Of a DNA stretch of 64,000 nucleotides, positions 1,267 through 21,850 are shown piece after piece. Position 1 is the stretch's first letter; the number at the start of each line of letters is the position of its first letter. The position numbers and the translations under genes are program-made. Under the pieces are notes generated by a model. That model did not search any database. It had not been told where the DNA came from and was given only the letters and a program-made list of their open reading frames with translations. Source of the DNA: Octadecabacter ascidiaceicola (GTDB lineage: Bacteria > Pseudomonadota > Alphaproteobacteria > Rhodobacterales > Rhodobacteraceae). The stretch spans positions 62,001 through 126,000 of the forward strand of contig NZ_FXYD01000006.1 in assembly GCF_900185015.1 (NCBI RefSeq), written 5' to 3'.

Positions 1267-2364
1267 ATGCCGAATGGTGCCGTTGAGCAGAGGCGGCGTG
1301 GAAACTATCATAACAGCATTGTAAGCATTTGGCAGGGAGGTGTGGAGGAAACCGCAGTATGCAGGCAGCAACCTCGGGCCGCACCGGAAAACCTTTGCTT
1401 CAAGACGAACAGAGTTGAGACCATTAGTTTCTTTGACAAAATTCGAAAGAGCTTCAGTAGATCGATAAGTAAGAAAAAGGGTGGGTTCGTATATCGGCGT
1501 ACCGCAAATTCAATACCCAAGATTTCTGGCTATTTTGATTTCTCAAAAATCGAGAAGATTTCGATGGCGTCTGCAGTGGTCCTCGCTGCTGATTATGAAA
1601 GGTTGAAGCATTTTCTCAATGAAGTGCCTCCGACGATTAATTTGAGGAGATGGAACCCGGTTGTTGTTACGAAACTTAACCAGATGGGTTTTTTCAATAT
1701 TTTGGGGCACCAACCCGATGAAAACTTGCTAATCCAAGATGGTGACTTCCTATTGATGCGGATCTTGAGGTCAGTGAATAGCGCAAATCTGAGCCAAGTC
1801 GATGATGCGCTAATGGAGCTCGGTGCATTTGTTTCTGATGACGAAAGTGCAATCGACGAGAAGGTTACGCATACGCTATCAATTGTAAGCGAAGTAATGG
1901 CAAATGTAACGCAACATGCGTATAGGAACGAAGTCGATTTCACATACAATCACCTAAGCAGTTTTTGGGTTTCCGCAGAGGCGAACCGAGCAGAGAAAAC
2001 ACTACGGATTGTGTTGTACGATCAAGGTGCCACGATACCTGTTACCTATCCAATTCTGGACAGGACGAAGCGCGTAACCCGGTTCCTCGAACGAGTACTG
2101 AGGCGGGCGCCCAAATTTGACTATGAAGATGATGGCACCTATATCAGGGCTGCACTCCGTTACGGCGGGTCGCGAACAGATTTGGATTATCGGGGTAAAG
2201 GGTTTCCACAGATGATCCAGCTTTTGGGTACTCTTGGTGGTGGTGAACTTATGGTTCTAAGTCGCGGTGGATGGTGCGCACGGGCAAGTAACGGAAAAGT
2301 AACTTCCGGTTCTTATCCCTGTTCTATCGGCGGAACTTTGGTCGAATGGAAGATAGAATTATAG
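1267..2364 (+). CDS. GHKL-type ATP-binding protein (histidine-kinase/anti-sigma-like fold)
   Basis: The C-terminal half carries the Bergerat ATP-binding signatures in order: N-box EVMANVTQHAY (bases 1891-1923), G1-like YDQGA near 2017, G2-like RGKGFPQM near 2191, and a final GGTLVEW strand. There is no phosphoacceptor His domain and no receiver, so it is an orphan GHKL protein like SpoIIAB/RsbW rather than a full kinase. The N-terminal part (KISGYFDFSKIEKISMAS onward) is a separate domain that I do not recognise. The start is uncertain. The frame is open from 1162; ATG 1267 is chosen because AGGAA precedes it, and ATG 1564 is also possible. A DUF4325 gene follows three bases after the stop, which suggests a co-translated pair. 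The gene is AT-richer than ychF, which fits acquired DNA. Confidence 0.7.
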   Translation: MPNGAVEQRRRGNYHNSIVSIWQGGVEETAVCRQQPRAAPENLCFKTNRVETISFFDKIRKSFSRSISKKKGGFVYRRTANSIPKISGYFDFSKIEKISMASAVVLAADYERLKHFLNEVPPTINLRRWNPVVVTKLNQMGFFNILGHQPDENLLIQDGDFLLMRILRSVNSANLSQVDDALMELGAFVSDDESAIDEKVTHTLSIVSEVMANVTQHAYRNEVDFTYNHLSSFWVSAEANRAEKTLRIVLYDQGATIPVTYPILDRTKRVTRFLERVLRRAPKFDYEDDGTYIRAALRYGGSRTDLDYRGKGFPQMIQLLGTLGGGELMVLSRGGWCARASNGKVTSGSYPCSIGGTLVEWKIEL

Positions 2365-2367
2365 CAA

Positions 2368-2727
2368 ATGGATACAGATGTAATGACCATTGATATAGCT
2401 GCTCAATTCTCCCGTCACCCATCGGGGCGTGTCGAAGCCGATGGACCTGACAACGGAGAGCGTTTTCGAAATGAGTTATTGGCTCCTGTGCTGCTAAAAG
2501 CTCTGGACCGTGGCGAAAATCAAAAAGTGGTCGTGGACATAGACGGCTGTCGTTCCTTTGGATCATCTTTTCTAGAAGAGGCATTCGGGGGGTTGTCCCG
2601 TCTGCCCTCATTTCCGTTTGCGGAAGCTTTAGAAATCTTGAGTATTCGTTCTGCTAAACCGCATCTACAGATCTATAGAGACGCCATTCTAGAGTATTTG
2701 GCAGATGCCAAGACACAAACTGCCTAG
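2368..2727 (+). CDS. STAS-like domain protein, DUF4325 family
   Basis: This 119-residue protein has the DUF4325 core: VVVDIDGCRSFGSSFLEEAFGGL, split here as VVVDIDGCRS followed by FGSSFLEEAFGGL, at about residues 51-73. DUF4325 is described in Pfam as STAS-like and of unknown function. STAS domains act as phosphorylation-controlled antagonists of GHKL kinases in partner-switching circuits. A Ser pair (GSS) sits where such a site would be expected, but that is inference. It starts three bases after the ATPase stop. The pairing with a GHKL protein and a membrane protein suggests a small signalling module. Confidence 0.65.
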   Translation: MDTDVMTIDIAAQFSRHPSGRVEADGPDNGERFRNELLAPVLLKALDRGENQKVVVDIDGCRSFGSSFLEEAFGGLSRLPSFPFAEALEILSIRSAKPHLQIYRDAILEYLADAKTQTA

Positions 2728-2741
2728 AGTTGACGTAGGTA

Positions 2742-3242
2742 ATGTCTGATAGGTTGATAATTGCTCTGGTTGGAGCGGCAATTGGCTGGGTGTTATCATG
2801 GCATAGATTCCGTGTTGCAGAGAATGCCAACTTAATTAGTGACCACATTGCGGATATGGAACGGCTCGCGGACGCCCTCCGCATTCATTGGACAACGTCA
2901 TTCGCAGACACGGATGTGAGTGAACATAAGAGTGAGATAGCAAAGGTAAGGGCGCTATACACCTCGATTCCGTCATTTTACGGCGTAGCTGAGTTGACGC
3001 TGGGCACTGAGCGTTTTCGCCAATACCAAATGCATCAGTTGAAACTGCTCAAGGTAGGCCTAGGAGGAGATTTTGACAGCCTGAACCGTGACTTGTCGGA
3101 GGCTACTGCAGTGGACTCTCAACATATTGCTTGGGATATTATTCAAAACCTGCGGACAGCGCGTCGAGAGCAATATAGCTTACGCGCGATTTACCGATCG
3201 ATGTTTTTGAGCAGGAAAGCTCCTCGTAAGCAACATTCTTAG
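2742..3242 (+). CDS. Membrane-anchored protein of unknown function, third gene of the module
   Basis: This 166-residue protein has one N-terminal hydrophobic segment at about residues 5-20 (LIIALVGAAIGWVLSW). A mostly helical, charged soluble part of about 140 residues follows, ending in a basic tail (SRKAPRKQ). No enzyme motif is visible and I do not recognise a family. It lies 14 bases after the DUF4325 stop on the same strand, so it probably belongs to the same transcript. By position it could be the membrane effector or sensor of the module. The start ATG at 2742 has only a weak GTAGGT upstream. Confidence 0.55.
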   Translation: MSDRLIIALVGAAIGWVLSWHRFRVAENANLISDHIADMERLADALRIHWTTSFADTDVSEHKSEIAKVRALYTSIPSFYGVAELTLGTERFRQYQMHQLKLLKVGLGGDFDSLNRDLSEATAVDSQHIAWDIIQNLRTARREQYSLRAIYRSMFLSRKAPRKQHS

Positions 3243-3286
3243 TGCTATTAGCAGTTCAATGTTCCTGCTCCTTTTTCTCAAATTTT

Positions 3287-3317
3287 GAGGGCGCTCCCTT
3301 GGAAAGGGAGCGCCCTC
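3287..3317 (+). terminator. Perfect 14-bp-stem hairpin after the three-gene module
   Basis: Left arm 3287-3300 and right arm 3304-3317 are exact complements around a 3-nt loop. This is a very stable GC-rich hairpin 45 bases after the last module gene. No T-run follows on either strand, so it may act as a transcript end structure or as something else. The nonamer GGCGCTCCC in its left arm is identical to tRNA-Ser bases 3575-3583. Confidence 0.55.
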
Positions 3318-3449
3318 ATTTACATAAGAATATGAATCCTTTTGCAAATTCTGCGAAGTGGCCGGATCCTTGTGTCAATTTCGTGCCAATCCACAATTCA
3401 GAAAGTCGCAAAACAGCTTATTTTCTGCCAAAAAGCCAAGGCCTCCGAT

Positions 3450-3547: not shown

Positions 3548-3592
3548 CAGCGGAGACGTGGCCGAGTGGTCGAAGGCGCTCCCCTGCTAAGG
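3548..3592 (+). repeat. Right direct repeat overlapping complete tRNA-Ser, att-like
   Basis: This is the second copy of the 45-bp repeat at 888-932, with no mismatch. Here it continues into the intact 3' half of the tRNA. The 2660 bp between the repeat starts is the size expected to be lost on excision, which would leave one complete tRNA-Ser behind ychF. Confidence 0.85.
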
Positions 3593-3641
3593 GAGTAGGC
3601 GGTAACCCGTCTCGAGGGTTCGAATCCCTTCGTCTCCGCCA
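3552..3641 (+). tRNA. tRNA-Ser(GCU)
   Basis: A 90-nt class II tRNA. The 7-bp acceptor stem is GGAGACG (3552-3558) with CGTCTCC (3631-3637). It has D-arm GCC/GGC, anticodon stem CTCCC/GGGAG (3579-3583 and 3591-3595) and a loop with anticodon GCT at 3586-3588. A long variable arm, T-loop TTCGAAT, discriminator G3638 and encoded CCA 3639-3641 complete it. The long variable arm and GCT anticodon identify serine for AGC/AGU codons. It is complete and should be functional. Confidence 0.97.
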
Positions 3642-3744: not shown

Positions 3745-4776
3745 TCAGTCTTCATCAGACGTTTTGCCAGTAACCAGCTTACGTTGATCCTCGCGGCTGA
3801 TTTGGCCGTAGCTGCGCAACGTCGTCAAAACATCTGTGTGGCCAAGGTTCTGTGAAGCGGCCACCAGTTCAGCCACAGACGTCGCGTTTTTGGCCGCATG
3901 GCGCGCCAGCATATGGCGAAAGGCGTGGGGGCCGTAGTTGGGAACGCCTGCAGCCTCATACGCTGTACGAACAATCTTGCGCACGGGTTCGGTGGTTTTC
4001 CAATGTTGGCGCGTGAATCCGTTTGCTGCAAAACCTGAATTTGACTTTGCAGCTATCGCGGTTGCTGAGAACAAAGGATCATCTGGACCGTAAAGCGCCA
4101 CTTCGTCGCAATAGGTCATCCAGTCCGCAAGGGCGGTTTCTGCATCCTCAAATCCTTTGGCAAAGAAGGTATCAATTGGCCTGCCAAATTTGGTGTCGAC
4201 CTCGCGTGGGTTTTGGGTGACAGATTGTTCCTGCAAATCAACGTGTTTGATCTTGAGCGACACTAACGCGGCAACACGAACGCCTGTCAGGCAAAGCAGG
4301 GCAAAGACTGCCTTGTCGCGCTTTTGGTGCGGTGTCGCGCTGGGCATAAGCGCAAGAGCGCGTTTGGCTTGGTTCATACTGGGTGCTGGGCGGGGCGGGG
4401 CCGCGCGGGCTTCTGCTTCATCGCGTCGGGATAGATTGAAGTAATCCGCATCCGCTGCTTTGATACGGCTTCGAAACCCATCTTGCTGAGAAAGCCACAG
4501 CACAAATTCCCGCAAGGTGGCCAATAAAGACCGCATTGTCGATTTGCCCAAGGGCTGTCCGGCCTTTGTCTTGCTTTGCTCCAAGTGGGTACGGAACCCC
4601 ATAGCCTGCTCAATATGAAAACGGGCAAAGTCCTTGCGCCCGTTCCAGACGTCAAAGCGTTCAAGGGCTGCGATCTCCCGATCTAGCGTTTTTTCCGAAA
4701 GCTGGCGCGCGAACTTGCGATATTCCAGAAAGCGGCGTTTCAGGCGTTCGTTCTTCTCATTGGGTCGTTTGCTCAT
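3745..4776 (-). CDS. Tyrosine-type site-specific integrase
   Basis: This 343-residue phage/ICE-type integrase has an N-terminal SAM-like core-binding domain (about residues 10-120) and a C-terminal catalytic domain. All catalytic residues are visible: Arg167 in TGVRVAAL, Lys196 in DTKFGRP, His284-x-x-Arg287 in PHAFRH, His313 in LGHTDV and Tyr323 in LRSYGQ. It catalyses strand exchange between an element attachment site and its chromosomal target. It lies 104 bp downstream of tRNA-Ser and reads toward it, which is the classic arrangement for a tRNA-targeting island. It appears intact. Excisionase-like genes lie behind it on the same strand. Confidence 0.93.
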   Translation of the reverse strand: MSKRPNEKNERLKRRFLEYRKFARQLSEKTLDREIAALERFDVWNGRKDFARFHIEQAMGFRTHLEQSKTKAGQPLGKSTMRSLLATLREFVLWLSQQDGFRSRIKAADADYFNLSRRDEAEARAAPPRPAPSMNQAKRALALMPSATPHQKRDKAVFALLCLTGVRVAALVSLKIKHVDLQEQSVTQNPREVDTKFGRPIDTFFAKGFEDAETALADWMTYCDEVALYGPDDPLFSATAIAAKSNSGFAANGFTRQHWKTTEPVRKIVRTAYEAAGVPNYGPHAFRHMLARHAAKNATSVAELVAASQNLGHTDVLTTLRSYGQISREDQRKLVTGKTSDED

Positions 4777-8068: not shown

Positions 8069-8809
8069 GTGGTTCAACTAGCTGAACATTTTGAGAGCAA
8101 AGATCGTGGGACCCATTCAGAATGGGCCCGCCAACAGCGCTGGTTCATCAAAGCGCGTCAGGACACAGAGCGCCGCGAGAAAGTTCAAGATCGATTGGAA
8201 GATGACCTGGCGGCATTGGCCGCCGAAGTTATCATGGCGACACAGGCGCAACTTGCAGCCCTCGAGGTTAAACTCGACAGTTACGATGAAGCCACCGTTA
8301 CCGCCCTCATGGAAAACCAAGAATTGCTAGACGTGGTAAATGCACGGATCGAGGCGATGTTAAATCAGGCTTATGTCATGGAAGATGGACGTCGTGTGTT
8401 CAGAACCGAAGATGGCCAACAGGTCTTTGACGAGCATGGCACGGAGGTTGGTGCCACGGAACTCGACCCACAGATGATTGATTCATCTTTGCCAACCTGG
8501 GAAATGTTTAGCTCAGATATTGAACAGCAAAGAGCATTGGAAACCCAGCGCACCGAAATTCTCGATTATCAAGAACAACTAGATGCCGCGCGCGATCAGA
8601 TCGCAGAAGGCGAGATTTCTGAAGCTGATCTTGAAGCACTGGATGCCGACCTACTGGACGCGATGCCAGATGCAGTCCGTAGCTATGCGGGTATTGAAGC
8701 ACACGCGCCAACGCCGGGCTCCACGTCACAATTTAATGCGCCAACAGCCTTGGAACCAATTCCAAACTTGATCGCCGAAAACTCAATTTTGCCCCCCTCA
8801 CCATTTTAG
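8069..8809 (+). CDS. Acidic coiled-coil hypothetical protein
   Basis: A 246-residue protein from GTG 8069, with GGAGAGTAA just upstream and the start touching the previous stop, so the two genes are coupled. Residues about 20-105 and 160-200 are highly helical with heptad-like patterns (REKVQDRLEDDLAALAAEV and TEILDYQEQLDAARDQ), pointing to two coiled coils. The C-terminus is proline/serine-rich and unstructured. No signal peptide or catalytic motif. Function unknown. The pairing with an exported protein recurs as a unit here, but I cannot connect it to a known system. Confidence 0.6.
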   Translation: MVQLAEHFESKDRGTHSEWARQQRWFIKARQDTERREKVQDRLEDDLAALAAEVIMATQAQLAALEVKLDSYDEATVTALMENQELLDVVNARIEAMLNQAYVMEDGRRVFRTEDGQQVFDEHGTEVGATELDPQMIDSSLPTWEMFSSDIEQQRALETQRTEILDYQEQLDAARDQIAEGEISEADLEALDADLLDAMPDAVRSYAGIEAHAPTPGSTSQFNAPTALEPIPNLIAENSILPPSPF

Positions 8810-9270
8810 AAGGGGATTCAGTCTTCAACGTATATCGCGTGCATTCAACGTTTAGGGTCGCAATGTACACGCATTGTCTGAAGCGCCATGTAAGGTGTTA
8901 GCGGCTCAAACAGGTGTCGATTGGTTGCTCAATGCTCAATGCTCAATGCTAGATGCATCAGCACCATGCCCGTACTTTGCCGATTGTTAACGTGTTCGGT
9001 TTCAACGGAATTGAGCCATTTATTGAATCCCGAGATGAGCACACAGTCTAGTGTGACACGTTTTCGCCCATTTCTAGGCGATAGTGAACGTGGTCAGCAC
9101 TCGGGCTCAAGGTCTACTAGAATAACCACTGTCGCGCATCAAAACGTCAAAGGGCAAAAAGATCGAAATAGGCTTGAACCCAGATGTTAGTTACTCCAAG
9201 TTGCGTGAACAACTATAACGTGAGTGTTGAGTAGACGCTACGTTTTGTATGATTTACTGGGGGTAGCGCG
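8810..9270. other. Non-coding stretch with a TGCTCAA tandem repeat
   Basis: No credible gene. The only structure I see is a 7-bp unit TGCTCAA repeated three times plus TGCT at 8926-8950. The open frame at 8921-9190 starts inside this repeat and has no family resemblance. The region may hold the promoter for the exported-protein and RTX genes that follow. Confidence 0.5.
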
Positions 9271-10206
9271 TTGCAAAAGAATAGACGGTCAAGGTCGCTA
9301 TTGCTCTCTCACGTATTGAAGGGATTGTCGTTCTATATTGCACTAACGACGTCGGTATTTGCTCAAGATATTGCAACGACCATGAGTGAACGGTTGAAAG
9401 ACCTGACAACTTGGAATGAGCTATGCGAAATTGAGGATTGCAGCCAATTTCCTGACGGTCATGTAACCTGGGCGATCGGAGCCGAACTTTATAGTTTTCC
9501 ATTGTATGACACGCTGGCTAACAAAGTAGGGAGAGTGGCTTACGGCGTCCGGAACGGACGGTTTGAGGAAATCAATTCAAATGGGGACGTGACACGTTCG
9601 TTTGGATATTCTGATCGGCTGAGGCTCTCACACTGTTGTGGACCTCTTTTAGAGTTCTTTGATCTGATGGACGATTTCCCCGCTTTGGGCGACGATCCTG
9701 ATGTGCGATGGATGCCGTCCTCTCGCGTGTATTTGTTGAGTGGTGACCCCAGTGGCACCCGTCATAGACTGGAAAGATATTTGGAGCACGCTTCTATTGA
9801 TATTGCCGGAGCACAGACCATTGGTGAATTGACCTTTAGCGAGCAGTCATCATTCGATCAAAACTTCTGGCTGCTCGATTTGCGCATGCACCCGAAACTA
9901 GTAATTCCAAGTTTCACACTGCTGTCAAAAAGGCCGCTATTGAATAATCGCCACGTCGTAGCGGTATGCGGTACGTTATGCGACTTCCGTACCGTGAACT
10001 TGGGATCATCTGTCGATACTGCGACCGCTCATGTTTCGATCAATTGGTTGCGACTCGGATTGGGGGACTCGTATGTTTGCGGTCCTGAGGGTACTGAGCC
10101 GCGATGCAATCTGAAAAATGGGCTTCTTGACCCAGTTCCTGAAATCCTTTCGACACTAGAGCAGCTGTTTACAATAGTGCGAATTCAAAACTTTAACGAG
10201 CATTAA
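9271..10206 (+). CDS. Exported hypothetical protein, cargo gene
   Basis: A 311-residue protein from TTG 9271, with GGGGG eight bases upstream. A signal peptide is visible: basic NRRSRS, hydrophobic LSFYIALTTS, cleavage after VFA before QDIAT. The mature protein has several Cys pairs (LCEIEDC, SHCCG, VCGTLC, VCGPEGTEPRC), consistent with a disulfide-bonded periplasmic or secreted protein. No enzyme motif is recognised. It precedes a second small protein and the giant RTX gene on the same strand, so it may be part of one surface or secretion-related unit. Confidence 0.6.
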   Translation: MQKNRRSRSLLLSHVLKGLSFYIALTTSVFAQDIATTMSERLKDLTTWNELCEIEDCSQFPDGHVTWAIGAELYSFPLYDTLANKVGRVAYGVRNGRFEEINSNGDVTRSFGYSDRLRLSHCCGPLLEFFDLMDDFPALGDDPDVRWMPSSRVYLLSGDPSGTRHRLERYLEHASIDIAGAQTIGELTFSEQSSFDQNFWLLDLRMHPKLVIPSFTLLSKRPLLNNRHVVAVCGTLCDFRTVNLGSSVDTATAHVSINWLRLGLGDSYVCGPEGTEPRCNLKNGLLDPVPEILSTLEQLFTIVRIQNFNEH

Positions 10207-10263
10207 TGCAGTGAACGTATGTTTGAAGCAGCTTTAAGCTTTTCGGATAACTTGGAGTAAACC

Positions 10264-10809
10264 ATGACCACGCTACAACTTACAGAAATGCAGCGGAAAC
10301 TGCTAGAAATACTGGATTTAGCTCTGCCCAATTTTAGATTGAAGCTGAACGTGACCTGCATCCGGCTTGTAACATGTTTTATCGCGTATGCCGGTGCCGC
10401 CCACTCAGACTCCATTGGTGGCGAAGGTCAAGGACCGTTGGGTTTTCAGAGCGCCTTCGCCGAACACTCAATCGTCCATCCATCGGGCCTGATAGAGCTG
10501 CGACGCGATAATGCGGTTGGGCTTACGGCGCATGTTGCGTCCTTTTGGCAGTGGAATGTTATTGAAATTCCACTCGATATTGTCGCCGTCGTGGATGGCC
10601 TGCCGGCGACTTGCGTTATTCTAACCGAGAAAGACGCTGTTTCTTATGGTGACTGCAGCTTTTTTCTGGGTTCGATAGAAGATGGTGCAACGTCGCTTTT
10701 AGAACTCATCTACATTCACGACCCGGCATTGGTTGAATGTCCTGATGAACAGCCTGGCAGTGATGATCAAATGACTATTCTTAATTGTACAAGAGGAAAG
10801 CGCCAATGA
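10264..10809 (+). CDS. Hypothetical protein coupled to the RTX gene
   Basis: A 181-residue protein from ATG 10264, with GGAG at a good distance. A hydrophobic segment at about residues 32-46 (TCIRLVTCFIAYAGAA) could be an internal signal sequence, with the true start further in, or a membrane anchor. The mature part has paired Cys (ATCVILT, GDCSFF, VECPDE, LNCTRG). Its stop overlaps the RTX start (ATGA at 10806), so the two are translationally coupled. It could be an accessory or inhibitor of the RTX protein. That is an inference from position only. Confidence 0.6.
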   Translation: MTTLQLTEMQRKLLEILDLALPNFRLKLNVTCIRLVTCFIAYAGAAHSDSIGGEGQGPLGFQSAFAEHSIVHPSGLIELRRDNAVGLTAHVASFWQWNVIEIPLDIVAVVDGLPATCVILTEKDAVSYGDCSFFLGSIEDGATSLLELIYIHDPALVECPDEQPGSDDQMTILNCTRGKRQ

Positions 10810-13800
10810 GTGTTCAGGGACTTATCGATATTGGAGCAATCCGCTTTTTTCACGCAGATCAATGGTCACAAAATGAAGGCTCATCACCCGCGGAATGGGA
10901 GATCGATCAGAATGCGATGGATTTATCGCTAATTGACTGGCAAGAAAGGCAAATTTTTCGCCTAAACAGGCTGACGGCCAGTGATACATTTGTAGATTTG
11001 TTGGGAAACTTTGGCCCAGAAAACGCCCTTTGGATCGGCTATACAAGATTGCCGGACATAGCAGAGGGTGACCTGTATCCCGGCATTGATATTCGCGGAA
11101 TTGCAATCGTCAGCGAAGAATTCTCGTTTGGATTTGTTGATCAAAATGGCGACGTAGTAGAGCTTTCCATCGAGCGGTTGCTTGCTCATGAGATCACTCA
11201 TGCAGCACTAGGAACACCGGACACGACTCAACCTTTGGATGGTAGCGTACCGGACCCAAACTATGCTGGGCCGACTGTCGACAAAGAAAACGCGATCATT
11301 CTTGAAGCGTTCCCGGACAACGAATCAATCCGAACCACTTATTCAAGTGTTACTCCACTTTCGGATTTGACAGAAAGGTCTAACTGGACGTTCGGCAATG
11401 AGGTCGATCTCGTTCATGTGGCAAAAGGGTCTCCTCCTGACGATCCGACTACGACCGGACCCGGATTTAATATTAACACCAGTAACAATTCGACTAACCT
11501 TAGAGATCTGATTATTTATAGAGATCGCGACGGTGACCCAGTCGACAATACGATAAGGTCTGGGGACGGGAGCGACTATATTTATGCTGGGAAAGGCAAT
11601 GATATCATTAGCCCTGGTCGCGGAGATGATTACGCATTTGCAGAAGATGGCAACGACGTTGTTTTGGGGTTTGAAGGAAACGATAGACTGGATGGTGGCG
11701 AAAACGAAGATCGCTCTGTAGATTTTGACACCTTGAACTACGAAGCGCTTTCATATGGGATTATCGTCGGTGTAGAGGAAGAAGCAACGGTTAATAGCCC
11801 AACGGTCTTTTATGCAGAGGACAGCCGTGAAAATTCGCAATGGCGTGACCTTTTTTGGAACTTTGAAAAACTTGCCTTAACGCGGCTTGATGACACCCTC
11901 AAGTTTGATCCAAAAATGTTCGATCTTAACATTGAGGGAAGTGGTGGTTTTGACTCTGGATTGTCTTTGGAAAGGGGCGATCTTATTGATGGTTCGAACC
12001 TAGAATCCGACCTAACCATTGCGCTCCAGGGAGCGTTGAGCGGCGATCCGGGAACTATAGCAGCCAACGGATTTGCAGTAGATGTGATCAAATTTGATGA
12101 TGTGATCGCGACGAAATACGCGGACACCATTACAGGAAGTGATACCAGCAACAAGATCTATGCGGGCGATGAGGCTGATAGCATAGACGGCGGGCTTGGT
12201 CACGATGACATTTATGGTGGCCTTGGGAACGACACGATCCTCGGCGGTGATGGCGCAGATTTTATCTATGACAATGGCTCAGCATCTCCCATAGAGGACG
12301 GTGAGGCTCCGCAAGAGTTTCTGGGACGTGTCCTCGCATATGATACTGAAGGTGACGATTCCATTGATGGTGGTGCGGGCGCCGACATCATCTATTATTC
12401 TGGGGGTATCGACACTGTCTCTGGTGGGGCCGGAAACGATATATACATGACCGCTCCAGAAGTTCGGGGAACGTCTATTTTTGATGACAACCTTACGATT
12501 GTATTGAGTGAAACCGCTGATGATCCGTTTGGAAACGACCTCATTTTGGGCGACGGCAAAGGCGTTGATCGGGTCCGGTTTGAAGGCATCAACAGAGCCG
12601 ATGTTACAGTCACTTACGACTATGAAAAGACATTTATCGGAACCCAAGTCGTCGAATTTGGCTCGTTTTTCTGGTACGATTTCGATCTTGCTCTGACAGT
12701 CGATCAATATGTCACCGTCGGTTCTGTCCAGATCACCGTTAATGCAACAGGCAGTAGTATTACAGTCGAACAGGTCACCGGCTTTCAGTTTGAAGGATAT
12801 TATGTCGGGGACACGTCTCCTTTCGAAGCATCAATGGTTGTCCCATTTTTGGTCGAGTTCGAAAACGGATATCTTGACTGGCCAACGTCGATGTTGGACC
12901 CGGCAACAAATAAATATACGTTCACCAATTCGGATCATGGTGAGCCGGAGAACGAAGAACCACCTGTAGGTGCGTCAAGCGCAGGTTCGGGTGGAACGAC
13001 TGGAGGTGGCAGTTCTGGCGGCGGCGGCTCCAATGATCCAGGTTCCAATGATCCAGGTAACGGCAGCAATGCATTCGCAGCACTCGGATCGTTCGAGTTT
13101 GAGCGTGCGCAGGCAGAGACAATTATTGATGGCGACGACGATGACGATGATATCTATGCAAGCACTGAATCGGAAATTGTGAATGCGGGGGGCGGCAATG
13201 ATCGAGTGTTCGCAGGCGGCGGAAGCGACATCGTCATCGGTGGAGCCGGAGCAGACACTCTCTATGGGGGCTCAGGCACCGATACAGCCAGCTACGATAC
13301 CGCAACTTCAGGCGTAGGTGTTTATCTGGACGAGGACCGGTTGACGATCACAAATACCTTTGGTGATGCGGATGGCGATGTCCTCGAAGGGTTCGAAAAC
13401 CTTACTGGCAGCGACTTTGATGACAGGCTCTACGGAGACGACGGTGCAAACCTAATCGTAGGTCGTGCGGGTAACGATACAATTCGGGGTCTTGGCGGAC
13501 AGGATACACTTGTTGGTGGGGACGGTGACGACACGATCATTGCAAGTGAATACGTAGATGACGACGACGTGTTGTTCGTTTCTGACGTCGAGATGTATGG
13601 TGGCGCTGGTAACGATACGATCCGGTCGTCAAGTGGGAACGATATCATTTTTGGTGGAGACGGCGATGACCTCGTTGAGTTGAGTAATTTCACGAATATC
13701 TTCGCGCCAGGGACGCCAGGCAATGACACTGTGAATGGTGGGTCTGGGTTGGATACCGTCCATTTCTTCAACGGTCCGATCATTGTCGATCTGGGAGCTG

Positions 13801-16800
13801 GAACAGCCGAGTATGTTGGTACAGGTGAAAGCGTTCGTCTTATTGATGTCGAGGGCATCAAAGCTGGCGGGGAAGATGATCTCATCATTGGTGGCGCCGG
13901 AGATAACATTCTCGACGGTGGCGGAGGTGATGATACGCTTATTGGTGGTGCGGGAGATGACGAGCTATACGGCGCGACCTACAACTTCCGAGACGACGCG
14001 ATCCTCTATGGCGGTTCTGGTGTCGATACCGCGCATGTAACCTGGGACTTCACCAACTCCACATTGGAGGTCATCGAAGGTGGGTTGAAGATCAACAAGG
14101 CGAGTGGTTCTGGCAGCTACACGATTTACGATGACATTGAATTCATTCAGTTTTCAGATGCGAATAAGACTTATCAGGAACTCGCCCAAGGTCTGATCAC
14201 GGAATTTGCTGTGATCGACGATTACATTCGTGTCGAAGAAGGCGCGACGGTTACACTCGACCTCTTGGCGAATGACCTAGAGTTTGACGGAAATGCCATC
14301 ACGTTGGAGACAATTAACGGTGTAGCGGCAGATCCCGGCGCGAATATTCGACTTTCCAGCGGCGCGGTTATCACAGTGGAAGCAGACGGCAGCCTCACCC
14401 TTGATCAGGGTGGCGCTTACGCTTGGCTGGATGCCAACGAATCTGTCTTCACTGTGCTGACATACACTGCGACGGATTCTACAAATGTTGTGCGTGAAGC
14501 AACGTCTACGCTCGTGATCGACGGTGTGGATACTGAAACTAACAACATCCATTTGGACCGCAACGTGTTCATAACCGAGACCAATCCCGATGCCGCTGAA
14601 GCTCTGCGGATCGGGAATTTTGATGTTTCTATAGCAGTACTCATCATCGACGAACAATACATTGATCCGAACGATGTGCCGGTCGGATTTTCTGTTGAGG
14701 AAATTAATGGTGAAACTTTCATCACCTATGGTGGTGATGATGCGGTGATCTTGAGCGACGTGGCGCTGGATACTTGGCAATATGCGGCTGCAAATCGGAC
14801 CGTGGGAACGAGCGCTGATGAACTCATCAATGGCACTGATGGCGACGATGTTATCCAAGCAGGTGCAGGCAACGACACCGTTCGATCTGGCGAAGGAAAC
14901 GATGTGGTTATCGGCCAAGATGGTGTTGATCGACTGAGTTTCACAGGCGGCGACAATATTGCAATTGGCGGAGCTGGCGGCGATTTTCTCACGGCCTTCG
15001 GTGGAGGAGAGAATTTGCTGTATGGTGGGGAAGGCGATGACCAATTGTTCAGCAACGATGGAGATGACACGCTAAACGGCGGATCTGGAAACGACAGTCT
15101 GCTGGGTCGAGATGGTGACGACACTTTGTTGGGTGGCGACGGCGATGATGTTTTCTTTGGTGGCAGCGGCCAAGATAGCTTCGACGGTGGGGCTGGCTTT
15201 GATCAAGTCGTACTTTACAACGACGATGTCGCGGGCCTTTCAGGCGGAGTGACCGTGGATCTCGCTGCTGGCTGGATAAGCTGGAGTTCCATCTATCCGT
15301 TAGAAACTTTGGTTTCAATTGAGTCGGTCTTGGGGACCGGGCAGGATGACACGCTTCTAGGTGACGAATTCGACAACGTTCTCGCGGGCAACTCAGGCGA
15401 TGATCTGATCCACGGTCGTGGAGGCGATGACAGCCTCTATACAGGTAGTGGATCAAGCACGCTTTATGGAGACGCAGGAGACGATCTTCTTTACGACCAG
15501 AGCGAAGGTGGCGATCAGCTTTTCGGCGGCGATGGGGATGACCGTTTCAACGTGAATACCCTCTTTGGTGGGGCCAATGAATTCCATGGAGGGGACGGAA
15601 GCGACACTCTTGATCTATCCGGGTCCAACCAGATGCTGAATGTCGACCTTACAAGCGGCCAGTTTGAAATTGGCGCAGAAAGCAACCAGTTTTCCGGGAT
15701 CGAAAATATCATCGGAACAAATGGCGACAATATTCTGATAGGAGATGGCGCTGACAATACCTTTGAAGGGTTAGGTGGGGCCGACACTTATACGTTGGGT
15801 AATGGCAATAATCTTGTACGTGTCGCTACTGGAAGCGGCCACGATATTATTACAGATTTTGATATTGCCGAAGACGCTATCGAAATCAACGGTGCGAATT
15901 TTGATCCTTCCGTTGGCGCGACGGGCGTTACAGCAACTCAAATTGGCTCGGACACTGTCCTCAACTTTGGTGCACAAGACAGCCTGACTTTGAACGGCAT
16001 CGATCTTACGTCTTGGCAAACTGCAAGTACTGGCCCAACCGGTGATGGTACGATCACGGGCACTGTTGGCAACGACATTATCGACGGAACGTTCGCGGAT
16101 GATCCTGAGGGTGATGTCATTACGGACAACGGCGACACGATCAACGCAGGCGCTGGTGCCGACAAGATCTACGACGGTGCAGGAGACGACGTTGTCTTTG
16201 GTGGTGATGGCCGTGATACGTTCTTTGCCGGGGCTGGGGCCGATCAATATGATGGCGGTGCGGCGAACAATGACGCTGTAAATTACAGCTTAGCATCGCA
16301 AGGGGTGACCGTTGATTTAACGGATGGGTCCAACAATTCCGGCATCGCAGCTGGAGACACATACACCAACGTCGAAGAGATCACCGGTTCGTCGCTTGAC
16401 GATATTATTGTTGGCGATGCTTCGATCTTTAAATTGTATGGTGGTGCTGGCAACGATGTGATCACTTCTGGAACGCTTAAGAACATCTTAGCAGGAAACG
16501 CAGGCGCTGATACTTTTGTGTTTGGTGTGGGAAGCAATGAAGACGTCGTTAAGGACTTCAGTGTCGGCGAGGATATCTTGGATGTGAGCGGTTGGGGTGC
16601 GACTTCCCTTGCTGACCTCACACTGGATGACAGCAGCGGCAAGGTCTACGTGAGCTTCGGATCAGATAGCTTTAGGTTGGACGGCATCATTTCGGTGGCT
16701 GATCTCACCGATGCCGACTTTGTGTTCGCACAGGACACCGGTTCAACGGGCGATGGCACGATCACGGGTACTTCTGGCGACGACCTCATTGATGGAACGT

Positions 16801-18179
16801 TCTCCGGTGATCCGGAGGGCGACGCGGTAACTGACGATGGTCAAGTGATCAATGCGGGCGATGGCAATGACGACATCTACGATGGTGCGGGTGATGACAC
16901 GGTCTTTGGCGGCGACGGCAAAGATGATTTCTTTGCGGGCGATGGGGCTGACCATTACGACGGTGGTGCTAGCAATCAAGACGTCGTCCACTTCACCACA
17001 TCCACGGTCGGCTTAACGGTTGATCTCACTGACACCAGCAACAGCACAGGTATCGCGACAGGCGACAGCTATGTCGGGATCGAACGCATCATTGGCTCTG
17101 ACTTCGACGATGTGCTCATCGGGGATGGTATTGTTCGCCACCTTTACGGCGGCGACGGCAATGACATCATAATGGACGCTGCTGGCTCGAACTACCTTCG
17201 TGGCGGCAACGGCGCTGATACGTTTGTGTTTGGGGCTGATGGCGGCAATGACCGGATTTATGACTTTGAGCTTGGGGTCGATACCATCGATGTCTCCGCT
17301 TGGGGCGCGACGAGTTTGGATGACTTGAATATCTATGAGAATAGTGGCCGCTTGGAGGTTCAGTTAAAGAGTGATCTGTCTGAGAGAATCCAATTGGATG
17401 GCCTCGATCAGACACATGTCGATTCATTCGGAGCGAGTGACTTTGTGTTCGCAACCGGTGGTGGTAGCGGCCCGACTGGGAATGGCACAATCACCGGCAC
17501 GTCTGGCAATGACATCATTGATGGAAACTTCGCAGGCGATCCTGAAGGTGATGTCATCACCGACAATGGCGATACGATTGATGCAGGCGTTGGCAACGAC
17601 AAGATCTACGATGGTGCTGGCGACGACATGGTCTTTGGCGGCGACGGTACTGAAACGTTCTATGCCGGTGCGGGGGCTGATCACTACGATGGCGGCGCGA
17701 GCAATCATGACGGTGTGGATTTCAGCGGTGCAACACAGGGCGTTACGGTTGATCTGACCGATGGTACAGGTGCCAGTAACACAGGCATCGCCGCAGGTGA
17801 CACCTACATCAACATCGAAAAGATTGTCGGGTCGTCTCATGATGACACCCTGATCGGTGATAGTCTGGTTAACAAATTGATCGGCGGCGATGGTGATGAT
17901 ACGATTGTCGCAGGAGCCCGCCACAATATCATGATCGGTGGCGACGGCGCTGATACGTTTGTGTTTGCAACAGGAAGCAAAACCAACGCTGTAAAGGACT
18001 TCTCTGCTAGCGAAGGCGATCTTCTCGACGTCAGCGGATGGGGTGCGACCTCGCTCGCAGACCTCTCATTGGATGACAGCAGTGGCAAAGTGGTTGTGAG
18101 TAATGGGGTAGATAGCATCACGCTGGATGGTATTATAGCTGTCAGCGATCTGACTGACAGTGATTTCGCGTTCGTCTAA
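10806..18179 (+). CDS. Giant RTX calcium-binding protein with HExxH motif, T1SS-type substrate
   Basis: A 2457-residue acidic secreted-type protein. ATG 10806 is chosen because it overlaps the previous stop and AGAGGAAAG precedes it. Residues 1-230 form an N-terminal domain with HEITHAALG at 128-136, a zinc-metallopeptidase-like HExxH. RTX nonapeptide arrays (GGxGxDxUx) then recur at about 255-305, 440-550 and 775-1070, and from 1340 onward. A Gly/Ser linker lies at about 722-759. A cadherin/VCBS-like beta-sandwich (VIDDYIRVEEGATVTLDLLA) lies at about 1136-1240. The C-terminal 715 residues are three copies of one unit, ending in DSDFAFV like type I secretion signals. No N-terminal signal peptide, and no ABC/HlyD/TolC genes, are nearby. 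It may be a surface protease or adhesin. The missing third metzincin His leaves protease activity uncertain. Confidence 0.88.
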   Translation: MSVQGLIDIGAIRFFHADQWSQNEGSSPAEWEIDQNAMDLSLIDWQERQIFRLNRLTASDTFVDLLGNFGPENALWIGYTRLPDIAEGDLYPGIDIRGIAIVSEEFSFGFVDQNGDVVELSIERLLAHEITHAALGTPDTTQPLDGSVPDPNYAGPTVDKENAIILEAFPDNESIRTTYSSVTPLSDLTERSNWTFGNEVDLVHVAKGSPPDDPTTTGPGFNINTSNNSTNLRDLIIYRDRDGDPVDNTIRSGDGSDYIYAGKGNDIISPGRGDDYAFAEDGNDVVLGFEGNDRLDGGENEDRSVDFDTLNYEALSYGIIVGVEEEATVNSPTVFYAEDSRENSQWRDLFWNFEKLALTRLDDTLKFDPKMFDLNIEGSGGFDSGLSLERGDLIDGSNLESDLTIALQGALSGDPGTIAANGFAVDVIKFDDVIATKYADTITGSDTSNKIYAGDEADSIDGGLGHDDIYGGLGNDTILGGDGADFIYDNGSASPIEDGEAPQEFLGRVLAYDTEGDDSIDGGAGADIIYYSGGIDTVSGGAGNDIYMTAPEVRGTSIFDDNLTIVLSETADDPFGNDLILGDGKGVDRVRFEGINRADVTVTYDYEKTFIGTQVVEFGSFFWYDFDLALTVDQYVTVGSVQITVNATGSSITVEQVTGFQFEGYYVGDTSPFEASMVVPFLVEFENGYLDWPTSMLDPATNKYTFTNSDHGEPENEEPPVGASSAGSGGTTGGGSSGGGGSNDPGSNDPGNGSNAFAALGSFEFERAQAETIIDGDDDDDDIYASTESEIVNAGGGNDRVFAGGGSDIVIGGAGADTLYGGSGTDTASYDTATSGVGVYLDEDRLTITNTFGDADGDVLEGFENLTGSDFDDRLYGDDGANLIVGRAGNDTIRGLGGQDTLVGGDGDDTIIASEYVDDDDVLFVSDVEMYGGAGNDTIRSSSGNDIIFGGDGDDLVELSNFTNIFAPGTPGNDTVNGGSGLDTVHFFNGPIIVDLGAGTAEYVGTGESVRLIDVEGIKAGGEDDLIIGGAGDNILDGGGGDDTLIGGAGDDELYGATYNFRDDAILYGGSGVDTAHVTWDFTNSTLEVIEGGLKINKASGSGSYTIYDDIEFIQFSDANKTYQELAQGLITEFAVIDDYIRVEEGATVTLDLLANDLEFDGNAITLETINGVAADPGANIRLSSGAVITVEADGSLTLDQGGAYAWLDANESVFTVLTYTATDSTNVVREATSTLVIDGVDTETNNIHLDRNVFITETNPDAAEALRIGNFDVSIAVLIIDEQYIDPNDVPVGFSVEEINGETFITYGGDDAVILSDVALDTWQYAAANRTVGTSADELINGTDGDDVIQAGAGNDTVRSGEGNDVVIGQDGVDRLSFTGGDNIAIGGAGGDFLTAFGGGENLLYGGEGDDQLFSNDGDDTLNGGSGNDSLLGRDGDDTLLGGDGDDVFFGGSGQDSFDGGAGFDQVVLYNDDVAGLSGGVTVDLAAGWISWSSIYPLETLVSIESVLGTGQDDTLLGDEFDNVLAGNSGDDLIHGRGGDDSLYTGSGSSTLYGDAGDDLLYDQSEGGDQLFGGDGDDRFNVNTLFGGANEFHGGDGSDTLDLSGSNQMLNVDLTSGQFEIGAESNQFSGIENIIGTNGDNILIGDGADNTFEGLGGADTYTLGNGNNLVRVATGSGHDIITDFDIAEDAIEINGANFDPSVGATGVTATQIGSDTVLNFGAQDSLTLNGIDLTSWQTASTGPTGDGTITGTVGNDIIDGTFADDPEGDVITDNGDTINAGAGADKIYDGAGDDVVFGGDGRDTFFAGAGADQYDGGAANNDAVNYSLASQGVTVDLTDGSNNSGIAAGDTYTNVEEITGSSLDDIIVGDASIFKLYGGAGNDVITSGTLKNILAGNAGADTFVFGVGSNEDVVKDFSVGEDILDVSGWGATSLADLTLDDSSGKVYVSFGSDSFRLDGIISVADLTDADFVFAQDTGSTGDGTITGTSGDDLIDGTFSGDPEGDAVTDDGQVINAGDGNDDIYDGAGDDTVFGGDGKDDFFAGDGADHYDGGASNQDVVHFTTSTVGLTVDLTDTSNSTGIATGDSYVGIERIIGSDFDDVLIGDGIVRHLYGGDGNDIIMDAAGSNYLRGGNGADTFVFGADGGNDRIYDFELGVDTIDVSAWGATSLDDLNIYENSGRLEVQLKSDLSERIQLDGLDQTHVDSFGASDFVFATGGGSGPTGNGTITGTSGNDIIDGNFAGDPEGDVITDNGDTIDAGVGNDKIYDGAGDDMVFGGDGTETFYAGAGADHYDGGASNHDGVDFSGATQGVTVDLTDGTGASNTGIAAGDTYINIEKIVGSSHDDTLIGDSLVNKLIGGDGDDTIVAGARHNIMIGGDGADTFVFATGSKTNAVKDFSASEGDLLDVSGWGATSLADLSLDDSSGKVVVSNGVDSITLDGIIAVSDLTDSDFAFV
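16032..18176 (+). repeat. Three tandem ~236-243-residue repeats at the RTX C-terminus
   Basis: Units start at 16032, 16740 and 17469 and are 708, 729 and 708 bp long. Each begins TGDGTITGT or TGNGTITGT. Each then has a DPEGD..TD block, RTX nonapeptides, a VDLTD strand, a second RTX block, ADTFVFG, and a closing beta domain (DVSGWGATSL or DVSAWGATSL) ending in DFVFA or DFAFV. The last domain resembles the C-terminal cap of type I secreted proteins. Units 1 and 3 are closer to each other than to unit 2 around WGATSLADL, which points to in-gene duplication. Confidence 0.85.
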
Positions 18180-18308: not shown

Positions 18309-21083
18309 CTATCGAGGCCGTGTTTGGGGCCTTGCTTTGAACATTTTGGATGAACGCCTATTCCGCCTTTCCTGACCTCGCGTATGCTGAATATCGGGCG
18401 CAGTATAAAAACCAGTTTCACCCCTGTGCCGCGTCAACGCAACGTAGGCCAAGTGTTTATCCAAGGACCGACTGGACAGCACGAAGCTGCGATCCACCGT
18501 ACAACCTTGCGAGCGGTGAATACTGACAGCGAAACCGTGATCAAATGCTGTGAACTGGGAGGGCGAAAACCTCAACTGTCGTTGTTTGCCTGTGTCATCA
18601 ACATCAAAACGGATCGCCAATTTATCGTCGCCAGTTGTCTCAACTGTTCCCAACATTCCGTTCCTCACTCCGAGTGTTGCATCATTACGGGTGAACAGGA
18701 TGCGGTCGCCCTCGGCGAATGCGCGTGGCCCATGATCGGTTTCGAAAAAGGTTTGGGGTTGGTCGTCGTTTGCACGCGCAGCTTTAATTCCTTGGTTGAT
18801 GGCGTGCACATCTACGCGGCGATGCGCCAATGCCAGTCTAGAACTTGCATCTCCGTTCTTATGCCAATCCGCGACGTAATCATCGACCAGTGCAGCAATT
18901 GCATGGTCTCTGTCGCGCGTGTTGCAAACGGCACCATGGCTAGCATAGCTTTGGAGGGCGTCGCTCGTGCGACCATTTGCCAAATCCACTGACGCGCGAC
19001 GTTGCCAATCCGATGTTTGCCTGCGGATTTCTGTGAGGGTTGCAGCACCATTTGCGTCAACCACATCCTTAAACGGTGTTCCTGCCTCAATGGGTTGGAG
19101 CTGATCTGGATCGCCTACTAATACTAGTTTGCAACCACGCTGGCGAAGTTGTTCTGTGACACGGGACAATTGCCGTGTGCCAACCATACCAGCTTCGTCC
19201 ACGACGACGATATCACCGCACCCGACAGGCTCGTATCCACTCTTCCAGCTTGCCTCCATTGAAGCCAACGTGCGCGACGGAATGCCCGATGCGCTTTGCA
19301 GGCTGTCGGCAGCTTTTCCGGCCAAGGCAGCGCCATGGACGCGGTACCCTTGGCGTTCCCACGCAACACGCGCGACGGACAGCATTGTGCTTTTCCCAGC
19401 CCCAGCAAGGCCCACAACTGCGGACATTTGGTGCGGGTCAAGAATGTGGTGAATGGCAGTGACCTGTTCTTCGCTGAGCGATGCCCCAATCTGTTTCTGC
19501 AAACGCGTGTTTTCGCGTTTGATCGCTTGTTCGACGTAAGAAGTATTAACTTTGAACCCACCTGAGCCAGCCATTTCTGATGTGCAGGTCGTTAAAGCTT
19601 CCGTCACCTCCAAGAAGTCGCGGGTGGTGTATTCCGCCCCTTCGTCGTTCTTGACCTGTACCAACTCTGGTGATGCCAGCGCCAGATCCGAGGCAATCCG
19701 TAAATCGAATGGGTCGCTGATATGCTCTGCTAACCCCCGTAGAATATCGGTACGCGTGAAGTGCGCTTGTTTGTCGTTGAGGTGGGCAAGGATCAGGTCA
19801 GGCTGCACTTTCAATTGCGTGACTGAGAACGGCGAGATGTCATGCGGCAGGATAAGTGGCTGGCGCGGATCAAGTGCATAAGGCGTAGAACGCTCCTTGG
19901 TCGCATTGCCGAGAAATTCATCTCTTAAAGCGCGCTGTGCATCAGAAAAGGATATTTCGCGTTCAAGGGTCCGGCGTTCTGCCAAATGGCGATCAATAAG
20001 CGCCTGACACTCCAGTTGATCGCGCAGAGCACAAGCTTGTGCTTGAGCAGCGGCGTCATCACAAAGTCGCTGATATTGCCCCGTCAGGCGTGCCCACGCA
20101 GCTCTCAAGCCAGTCGGCAATTTAGAGTGCCGTGCTGTCAGTTCTTTGATCCGGCGTGCGTCCTGCGACTCGTCCAGAGTTTGCCGTTCCCTGCGTTGAC
20201 GCGAAACTAACTCTGTCAGTTTTTGGGCAAATACGTCCTGTTTGGCATCGGAGAAGTCATTTTGTTCCCGTATGCTTTGGAATGACGGGTCAATACCTTC
20301 GTCCAACAGTGCGCGTGCCGCTTCAACATCGGGGAGGTCAGCACCATCACCAAGACGGTTGCGCAGCTCTTTGGTTTTGACGCGGCACCAACGAGACAGC
20401 GAATAAATCTCACCGCGCACATCGACGGCGACAAAGCCGCGCCGGCCACCCCGTGCAAGGCAAAACCCTTGCTCCAATAGCGCTGCCTCGAACGACTTTC
20501 GAGAGTCAGACATCTCCCAGCAAGATCTGAACATCGCTTTGAGTTGTTCAGGATCACGTTCTACCCGTTTTGCCTGACCTGCCTCGTCATGGGTGTATGT
20601 ATTTGGACTGCGATCCTCAGCCCGACGCAACCCCGCAGGCATCTCCCAACCATGTTCCAGATAAAGTTCGCGGCTGATATCCATCAACCGTCGTTTGAAA
20701 TGGGGCAGATTGATCGCCCGCATCTTTGCCGTATCGATCCGAGACCAAACGCAATGCGCGTGGCGACGCCCCTTCTTTTCATGGAAGACAATTGCCCGGG
20801 GTTGACCCGACAGACCCATGCGACGTTCGATATCGGCAATCGCGACCTCAAATTCTGCGACAGTTACCTTTGCTGTCTGAGGTGGGTTAAGGTTGAGGGA
20901 GAACAGGTATTGCTGGCATTTCGTGCCGAGCGAGATTGCTTCACTTTCTTTGAAGGCATCCGCCAGATCGCTCGCTAGGAACCCGCGTAGCTCGTGAAGT
21001 GTGACATGTTCATTGTCCATCGCGTTCAGCAAATGCTGCGCAAGTTCTTGTCCATTGGCACGTTGATTGCCCTTGAGGATCAT
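18309..21083 (-). CDS. Relaxase fused to RecD/TraA-type helicase (mobilisation protein)
   Basis: A 924-residue fusion. The N-terminal relaxase domain (residues 1-200) shows the histidine cluster His101, His108, His110 in HEKKGRRHAH, typical of PF03432-type relaxases that nick oriT and stay bound to the 5' end. A basic coiled region follows. From about 530 on comes a superfamily I helicase: Walker A GLAGAGKST near 557, DEAGM box near 624, GDPDQLQP, and a C-terminal SIHRSQGCT motif. This Ti-plasmid TraA-like layout nicks and unwinds the transferred strand. It overlaps mobC by 4 bp. No type IV secretion or coupling-protein gene is present, so the element is at best mobilisable in trans. Confidence 0.88.
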   Translation of the reverse strand: MILKGNQRANGQELAQHLLNAMDNEHVTLHELRGFLASDLADAFKESEAISLGTKCQQYLFSLNLNPPQTAKVTVAEFEVAIADIERRMGLSGQPRAIVFHEKKGRRHAHCVWSRIDTAKMRAINLPHFKRRLMDISRELYLEHGWEMPAGLRRAEDRSPNTYTHDEAGQAKRVERDPEQLKAMFRSCWEMSDSRKSFEAALLEQGFCLARGGRRGFVAVDVRGEIYSLSRWCRVKTKELRNRLGDGADLPDVEAARALLDEGIDPSFQSIREQNDFSDAKQDVFAQKLTELVSRQRRERQTLDESQDARRIKELTARHSKLPTGLRAAWARLTGQYQRLCDDAAAQAQACALRDQLECQALIDRHLAERRTLEREISFSDAQRALRDEFLGNATKERSTPYALDPRQPLILPHDISPFSVTQLKVQPDLILAHLNDKQAHFTRTDILRGLAEHISDPFDLRIASDLALASPELVQVKNDEGAEYTTRDFLEVTEALTTCTSEMAGSGGFKVNTSYVEQAIKRENTRLQKQIGASLSEEQVTAIHHILDPHQMSAVVGLAGAGKSTMLSVARVAWERQGYRVHGAALAGKAADSLQSASGIPSRTLASMEASWKSGYEPVGCGDIVVVDEAGMVGTRQLSRVTEQLRQRGCKLVLVGDPDQLQPIEAGTPFKDVVDANGAATLTEIRRQTSDWQRRASVDLANGRTSDALQSYASHGAVCNTRDRDHAIAALVDDYVADWHKNGDASSRLALAHRRVDVHAINQGIKAARANDDQPQTFFETDHGPRAFAEGDRILFTRNDATLGVRNGMLGTVETTGDDKLAIRFDVDDTGKQRQLRFSPSQFTAFDHGFAVSIHRSQGCTVDRSFVLSSRSLDKHLAYVALTRHRGETGFYTAPDIQHTRGQERRNRRSSKMFKARPQTRPR

Positions 21084-21739: not shown

Positions 21740-21818
21740 TTCAGATGCTTGCAGGGGTCTTACCACCTACGCTTGCCACCTATGCTGATAAAGAAGGGGA
21801 ATCCCTATTTAGCCCCTC
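21740..21818 (-). other. Candidate oriT region upstream of the mob operon
   Basis: The 80 bp upstream of the mob genes contain CCACCTACGCT and CCACCTATGCT in direct repeat near 21765-21785, plus a CCCCT-AGGGG inverted repeat nearby. oriT sites usually lie next to the relaxase operon and contain such repeats. I see no known nick consensus, so this is a location guess. Confidence 0.3.
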
Positions 21819-21850
21819 AGCAGGGGAGCCCCTTCGACCACTCGGCCACG
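21819..21850 (-). repeat. Inverted fragment of tRNA-Ser(GCU) 5' half
   Basis: Read on the minus strand, these 32 bases match tRNA-Ser bases from the end of the acceptor strand through the GCT anticodon, with one mismatch (GGGGCT for GGCGCT). No acceptor partner, T-loop or 3' end follows, so it is not a working tRNA. It has the opposite orientation to the copies at 888 and 3548. It may mark an island end moved by inversion, or an attachment site of another element. Confidence 0.7.

Follow-up and report, generated by a model that had tools for sequence, protein, structure and literature searches.

A 2,660-bp insertion was found in the tRNA-Ser gene of Octadecabacter ascidiaceicola, and three genes fill it. 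Positions given here are those of the window, that is, the whole stretch of 64,000 nucleotides that was analysed. The edges of the insertion are 45-bp repeats on the + strand (888-932 and 3548-3592), each carrying the 5' half of tRNA-Ser(GCT). The left copy is the remnant of the original tRNA; at the right edge tRNA-Ser(GCT) has been restored intact (3552-3641, + strand), with the right copy as its 5' half. The gene ychF, ending at 835, is the 5' neighbour of the insertion. In the close relative G001 the site is empty, with ychF followed by about 55 bases and then one intact tRNA-Ser, and the left flank of the window tracks G001 up to position 932 and diverges beyond it. The repeats and the empty site agreed with a preliminary description of this DNA, which had placed the three genes inside a mobile unit. 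Among 19 genomes of the genus, the kinase gene was detected only in the window's own, and so was the STAS gene. The ORF list showed no integrase ORF inside the 2,660-bp insertion. On the 3' side of the last gene lies a perfect 15-bp hairpin (3286-3318, + strand), a likely terminator; the 66-nt stretch around it folds at -32 kcal/mol (z -6.7), and the hairpin was missing from the output of a consensus terminator scan.

Across the tRNA begins a separate, integrase-bearing island, with its integrase at 3745-4776. By eye, this neighbouring island also carries an ORF of 2,464 aa with repeated glycine-aspartate motifs resembling RTX-like calcium-binding repeats (10785-18179) and a relaxase/helicase-like ORF of 924 aa (18309-21083). 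Past the integrase and relaxase genes the 5' half of tRNA-Ser occurs a third time (21814-21850, inverted, 95%). This copy and the one within the intact tRNA make an inverted pair spanning 18 kb, which could be flipped by a recombinase. In four sister genomes (G002, G008, G013 and G015) the interval between ychF and tRNA-Ser holds an extra stretch with a LysR-like ORF, as judged by eye; the kinase search was negative in these four, and the idea of this interval as a hotspot of small islands was dropped.

The first gene of the insertion (1162-2364, + strand) has a TTG start and encodes a protein of 400 aa, assigned as a STAS-like plus GHKL kinase from Pfam, phrog_3364, the ATP-site motifs and a structure model. 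The ATG at 1267, which the preliminary description had taken as the start, is too late and was ruled out, because conservation among relatives begins at 1162: the relatives in G019 and G301 align over kinase residues 1 to 400, at 71% and 66%. The Pfam match to HATPase_c_2 (E 3.8e-4) fell below Pfam's own cut-off, and among the PHROGs the protein matched phrog_3364, a viral family with unassigned function (E 2.5e-36). The kinase assignment does not depend on the weak Pfam score, because the phrog_3364 match comes together with a complete set of ATP-site motifs. The Bergerat-fold residues N248, D287, G289, G347, G391 and T392 were present in 146 of 146 aligned kinases, and E244 in 145 of them. 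The kinase model reached a pLDDT of 90, and its top four PDB matches were SpoIIAB structures. The N-terminal part of the kinase profile weakly matched SpoIIAA (E 0.071), which fits a STAS-like domain preceding the GHKL domain. The N-terminal tail is basic, with a net charge of +10 over the first 45 residues of the window kinase; over 131 kinases, the mean for these residues was +11.4, and 113 of the 131 had at least +8. At the level of sequence, the kinase motifs and the gene linkage described below are well supported.

The second gene (2368-2727, + strand) starts 3 bp after the first and ends 14 bp before the third, all on the same strand. It encodes a STAS-like DUF4325 protein of 119 aa, identified by Pfam, with a candidate phospho-acceptor Ser67 in GSSFLEEAFGGL. 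The match to DUF4325 (PF14213) was above the cut-off (E 2.7e-12, 46.7 bits versus 23), and the C-terminal part of phrog_5816 was matched as well (E 5.2e-11). Ser67 was found in 14 of 14 sequences of alignment A1, which were collected via kinase or BLAST similarity, and in 20 of the 22 alignable sequences (the window's included) from a Pfam survey that was not keyed on the motif. Both exceptions are PIN-type relatives with Ala at column 67, and they were counted against reading the protein as a switch. These two sets were used in place of alignment A5, in which conservation of Ser67 is not independent evidence because the motif SFL[ED]E[AV]F[GA] had been the search key for the genome and viral DUF4325 scans.

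DUF4325 had been described preliminarily as a family with no assigned function, and this is outdated. A three-gene system published in June 2026 in EMBO J, VapKSC, consists of the kinase VapK, the STAS antitoxin VapS and the PIN toxin VapC, and its main text reports that the S48E change in VapS releases VapC and that the operon protects against phage Bas42 by about 2 logs (PMC13373217). The same text describes a related kinase, CapK, as activated by ssDNA and its partner CapS as a DNA-binding repressor. The name DUF4325 is absent from this main text, and membranes come up in it four times, on each occasion in a different connection. When compared with the DUF4325 profile, the VapS chain of PDB 9z7o was sub-threshold (E 0.11), and the VapS stretch matched Pfam DUF4325 above the cut-off (E 1.2e-14). 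Judged by sequence, VapS is a DUF4325 member, and the family is no longer one without a function because this member is a phospho-switched antitoxin.

The third gene (2742-3242, + strand) encodes a protein of 166 aa that, from its sequence and structure model, is predicted to be a membrane-anchored four-helix protein with one N-terminal TM helix, and it is the putative effector. The model (pLDDT 94, pTM 0.85) contains one long N-terminal helix, including the TM part, followed by a helical bundle. Pfam and further family searches gave no match of weight, and the model matched nothing in PDB or viral comparisons at E <= 0.001. It is a generic four-helix bundle; a specific fold was not adopted, as PDB, viral and VIA comparisons returned generic helical bundles only. 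A match to Saf_2TM, the CBASS 2TM effector, occurred in one of 107 third-gene proteins (E 0.001) and was too weak for use. BLAST did not detect the third protein beyond its closest relative, and its layout could nonetheless be aligned. Charge was more positive after the TM helix than before it in 80 of 103 third proteins, with a mean net charge of +1.48 in the 15 residues after it and -0.58 in the 12 before. The helical bundle is predicted to be cytosolic because positive charge tends to sit after the TM helix. Five loci (L091, L092, L095, L096 and L133), namely single relatives from Bacteroidota, Omnitrophota, Patescibacteria and Clostridia plus one viral contig, showed two TM-like segments in this protein. 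The ORFs, the Pfam matches and the hydrophobic N-terminal segment thus bore out the gene content given in the preliminary description, a GHKL protein, a DUF4325 protein and a one-pass membrane protein with gaps of 3 and 14 bp.

We then examined how far these three genes stay together. In the host family, a protein search gave matches in 12 of 394 genomes, two of them short and weak (G233 and G316). The remaining ten genomes, the window's included, had 11 full kinase matches, and a DUF4325 gene lay directly 3' of the kinase in 11 of 11. A third ORF with a hydrophobic or truncated N-terminal start was present in nine of these loci; the two exceptions were L015, which ends at a contig edge, and L022, which has no third ORF nearby. 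A scan with the DUF4325 alignment returned 348 relatives in genomes (one genome per species) and 225 in viral contigs, and the best 80 of each, 160 loci, were analysed. Going by their record titles, the relatives belong to Pseudomonadota, Bacteroidota, Planctomycetota, Acidobacteriota, Desulfovibrio, Clostridia, Omnitrophota and Patescibacteria.

In 155 of the 160 loci the STAS gene had a kinase match no more than 400 bp away, with some loci cut by contig ends; in two of the five without a kinase match (L157 and L184), the contig starts at the STAS gene. Loci L086 and L108 have DUF4325 and the third gene with no recognised kinase upstream, and are natural cases of the STAS-membrane pair alone. 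The third-gene profile A3, built before the scan from 12 sequences of which four recur among the 160 loci, gave 112 matches among 20,972 ORFs. All of them were at the third position, 110 inside the set position limits and two (L049 and L055) starting earlier. By class, the third position held a profile match in 110 loci, another ORF with an N-terminal TM-like segment in 33, some other ORF in 11 and none in six. The 17 loci classified as having no third ORF with an N-terminal TM were counted against the trio, although they include L049 and L055, which have an A3 match, and some loci cut by contig ends. Pairwise protein distances over 89 loci correlated with r 0.63 for kinase and STAS protein, 0.84 for kinase and TM protein, and 0.60 for STAS and TM protein, versus a highest r of 0.09 among 500 shuffles. 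The trio is more than a chance grouping, because the three genes co-occur far outside the relatives of the host, and it is real and widespread. DUF4325 adjoining a GHKL gene and a membrane gene conserved in third place are both patterns that the preliminary description had looked to a neighbourhood search for. It had also proposed a GHKL-STAS switch with no sigma factor and with the membrane protein as a possible output. That output is likely, and the third gene shares the conservation of the other two.

Copies of the trio were found in mobile DNA. It lies one gene from a Cro/CI regulator gene in Marinobacter phage AS1, in a Helicobacter prophage, and on an Acinetobacter plasmid. In Francisella phage KIRK it sits between the CI repressor and the integrase, in a published table that gives the genes individually (PMC7924643), and the gene table of a Novosphingobium plasmid has the first two genes only. 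A tRNA on the same strand was present within 500 bp upstream in 11 of 80 genome loci, versus 0.37 expected from the background tRNA density of the same loci, and five of the 11 are tRNA-Ser. No tRNA was found within 500 bp downstream, or upstream in antisense, in any of these 80. When both sides and distances of up to 1 kb were allowed, 8 of 44 loci had a tRNA, versus 4.5 at random positions with 10 as the largest of 500 controls, which is not striking. Of the tRNA tests, the same-strand upstream count alone stands out. Together with the copies in phages, it agreed with the siting at tRNA islands expected in the preliminary description.

Among the 11 tRNA-adjacent loci, L030, which is the 71% relative, holds another small unit with the trio (8329-11353, about 3.0 kb). 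A 16-bp copy of the end of tRNA-Arg brackets this unit, the repeat length being read by eye, and no integrase was seen in it. The window unit and the L030 unit have only the gene region in common. The other ten tRNA-adjacent loci had no downstream tRNA copy of at least 15 bp; their few matches of 11-14 bp, some of them upstream of or within the tRNA, were read as chance. In viral contigs from isolate genomes, the cassette lay within 3 kb of an end in 14 of 44 versus 8.2 simulated (p 0.021), a weak excess that was left unused because some contigs are cut at the cassette.

The nearest neighbours of the trio were mixed. Among 140 neighbouring proteins, 99 Pfam families were matched, with Phage_integrase in four proteins, and integrase and repressor phrogs were present. 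The window cassette has no sigma factor, and sigma-70 had one match among the 140 in the matches listed, which took in 25 of the 99 Pfam families and 25 of the 74 PHROG families; these families gave no support to a core signalling locus with sigma factors. PADLOC, run on the same 140 proteins at E 1e-10 as a raw count without a control set, found no family with more than one match. Enrichment near known defence genes, which had been predicted beforehand, was thus not borne out, and the result does not support the defence-island prediction, with a cassette acting solo remaining compatible. Membership in a known defence family was rejected, as the first two window proteins had no PADLOC match and the third a chance-level match only. 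Among 62 kinases, PADLOC gave four weak matches to DrmA (best 4.1e-5), one to PDC-M65A and one to CSD_V.

A Pfam survey of the phylum found DUF4325 in 29 of 398 genomes, with 31 matches. Output types were assigned by reading 30 of the 31 loci, with ten proteins checked against Pfam; the 31st match also lies in a long frame. The membrane type accounted for eight of the 30 by profile (the window's included), plus one similar locus without a profile match (L214). Three loci were of the PIN type resembling VapKSC (L197, L198 and L200, the PIN match of L198 being below Pfam's cut-offs), ten had long frames reading as single-chain GHKL-DUF4325 fusions, six of these with an HTH-like start by eye, and eight were other. 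In this small sample the membrane type, with eight (plus one) loci, is thus no rarer than the PIN type, with three. The six chains with an HTH-like start, GHKL and DUF4325 (L192, L194, L195, L201, L204 and L207, of which L192 alone was Pfam-checked) are perhaps self-contained regulators. In L191 the kinase and DUF4325 genes are followed by an ORF that by eye resembles plasmid pRiA4b ORF-3 proteins, perhaps another output.

On balance we lean towards the trio being a release switch like VapKSC with a membrane effector in place of the nuclease. The basis for a switch is the near-constant linkage, the intact ATP-site motifs, the conserved candidate serine, the one-TM four-helix model and the mobile setting. 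At rest, the DUF4325/STAS protein would bind and hold the cytosolic helical bundle of the third protein. By analogy, the trigger would most likely be nucleic acid stemming from infection or from DNA damage, which the kinase would sense via its STAS/GHKL groove or its basic tail. The triggered kinase would then phosphorylate the STAS protein at its conserved serine; the STAS protein would let go as the complex dissociates, and the released membrane protein would disturb the membrane or stop growth. The outcome may be protection of the population and of the resident phage or island. Phosphorylation, release and trigger are carried over from VapKSC and CapKS, and the action of the membrane protein and the role in defence are pure conjecture on our part. 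There is no phosphatase gene among the three, which would fit a one-way suicidal switch.

The main rival reverses the wiring, with the membrane protein as a sensor or docking partner and the kinase-STAS pair signalling to an output elsewhere on the host chromosome. As a generic bundle whose nearest shapes are chemoreceptor sensor domains, the third protein may act as a sensor instead of an effector; many of its best shape matches come from chemoreceptors and histidine kinases, where they form four-helix sensor domains. Classic GHKL-STAS switches target host sigma factors, and this was counted in favour of such wiring too. However, the shape matches stand at the tool's stated noise level for helical bundles, the basic residues after the TM helix predict a cytosolic bundle, and a three-gene unit recurring in many phyla fits better with a self-contained output. 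We consider this wiring unlikely.

A housekeeping function for prophages, in which a module for superinfection exclusion or lysogeny control would signal DNA damage to the resident phage and would not defend the cell, was likewise given a rather low chance. The places of the trio in KIRK, between CI repressor and integrase, and in AS1, one gene from the Cro/CI regulator, speak for it, but some copies lie off prophages, in small tRNA units (the window and L030) and in one case on a plasmid. Finally, the STAS protein could regulate transcription of neighbouring genes as CapS does, the kinase-STAS pairing being common to both. This is very improbable, as no HTH domain was found in the STAS protein of 119 aa, the next downstream gene is on the same strand in just 26 of 74 genome loci, and a strong hairpin follows the third gene in the window.

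Beyond the preferred release switch, we put forward, as a tentative possibility that falls short of being probable, that the trio is a widespread and previously undescribed abortive-infection system against phages. A basic-tailed, nucleic-acid-sensing GHKL kinase would free a membrane-disrupting four-helix effector from a DUF4325 antitoxin, and the system would travel in its minimal form as integrase-less three-gene islands of about 2.7 to 3 kb, moved at tRNA sites by the integrases of other elements. Among the papers listed by a literature search, with preprints and most subscription journals outside it, none gave an account of a kinase-DUF4325-membrane trio as a system. DUF4325, a Pfam family of 'unknown function', is now linked to the mechanism described in June 2026, and our results point to a second output of the kinase-STAS switch, one that is membrane-bound and common (348 relatives in genomes, 225 in viral contigs). 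If true, GHKL-STAS pairs would serve generally as a catch that releases interchangeable effectors in conflicts with phages.

The comparison with known systems sets the limits of this reading. SpoIIAB/SpoIIAA and RsbW/RsbV have the GHKL fold and a STAS partner with an acceptor serine in common with the trio. Unlike them, the trio has no sigma factor and its third member is a membrane protein; the SpoIIAB and RsbW kinases have one domain, whereas the trio kinase has two domains and a tail. The viral clusters phrog_3364 and phrog_5816 match the kinase and the STAS protein, but they are sequence clusters with no assigned role and leave the third gene uncovered. CapK and CapS resemble the trio in having a STAS-GHKL kinase followed by a STAS partner. 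The main text that describes them places an HTH at the N-terminus of CapK and a winged HTH at the C-terminus of CapS, and has CapKS mostly preceding separate immune operons (PMC13373217). The trio has neither HTH, and its operon ends with the membrane gene. In the window, neither the kinase nor the STAS protein had an HTH match at E 1, and the trio is followed by the hairpin and the tRNA, with no immune operon as after CapKS.

VapKSC is alike in its gene order of kinase, STAS protein and third protein, in its STAS-GHKL kinase and DUF4325 STAS protein with a conserved serine, and in its spread over many bacterial groups. The kinase profile A6 also matches the kinases of the PIN-type operons L200 (E 2.6e-15), L198 and L197. 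There are also differences. The third gene of the trio encodes a one-TM four-helix membrane protein, whereas VapC is a PIN nuclease: the window third protein had no PIN match at E 1, and at most one of 107 third-gene proteins matches a PIN family (all families with at least two matches were listed, PIN not among them). The conserved Ser67 falls one column after VapS Ser48 in an ungapped profile alignment that assumes an 18-residue tag on the VapS chain, and this was counted against the likeness. The long basic N-terminal tail of the trio kinase is missing in two of three VapK-like kinases compared. The aromatic residues contacting ssDNA, F54 in VapK and W68 in CapK, have no clear counterpart in the window kinase in an alignment with VapK-like kinases that has the VapK and CapK references outside it. 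The trio stands outside VapKSC because its third gene is not PIN, and outside CapKS because it has no HTH domains; it is of the same kind as both and a member of neither. It may be a membrane-acting cousin of VapKSC, whose RNA-cutting toxin protects from phage.
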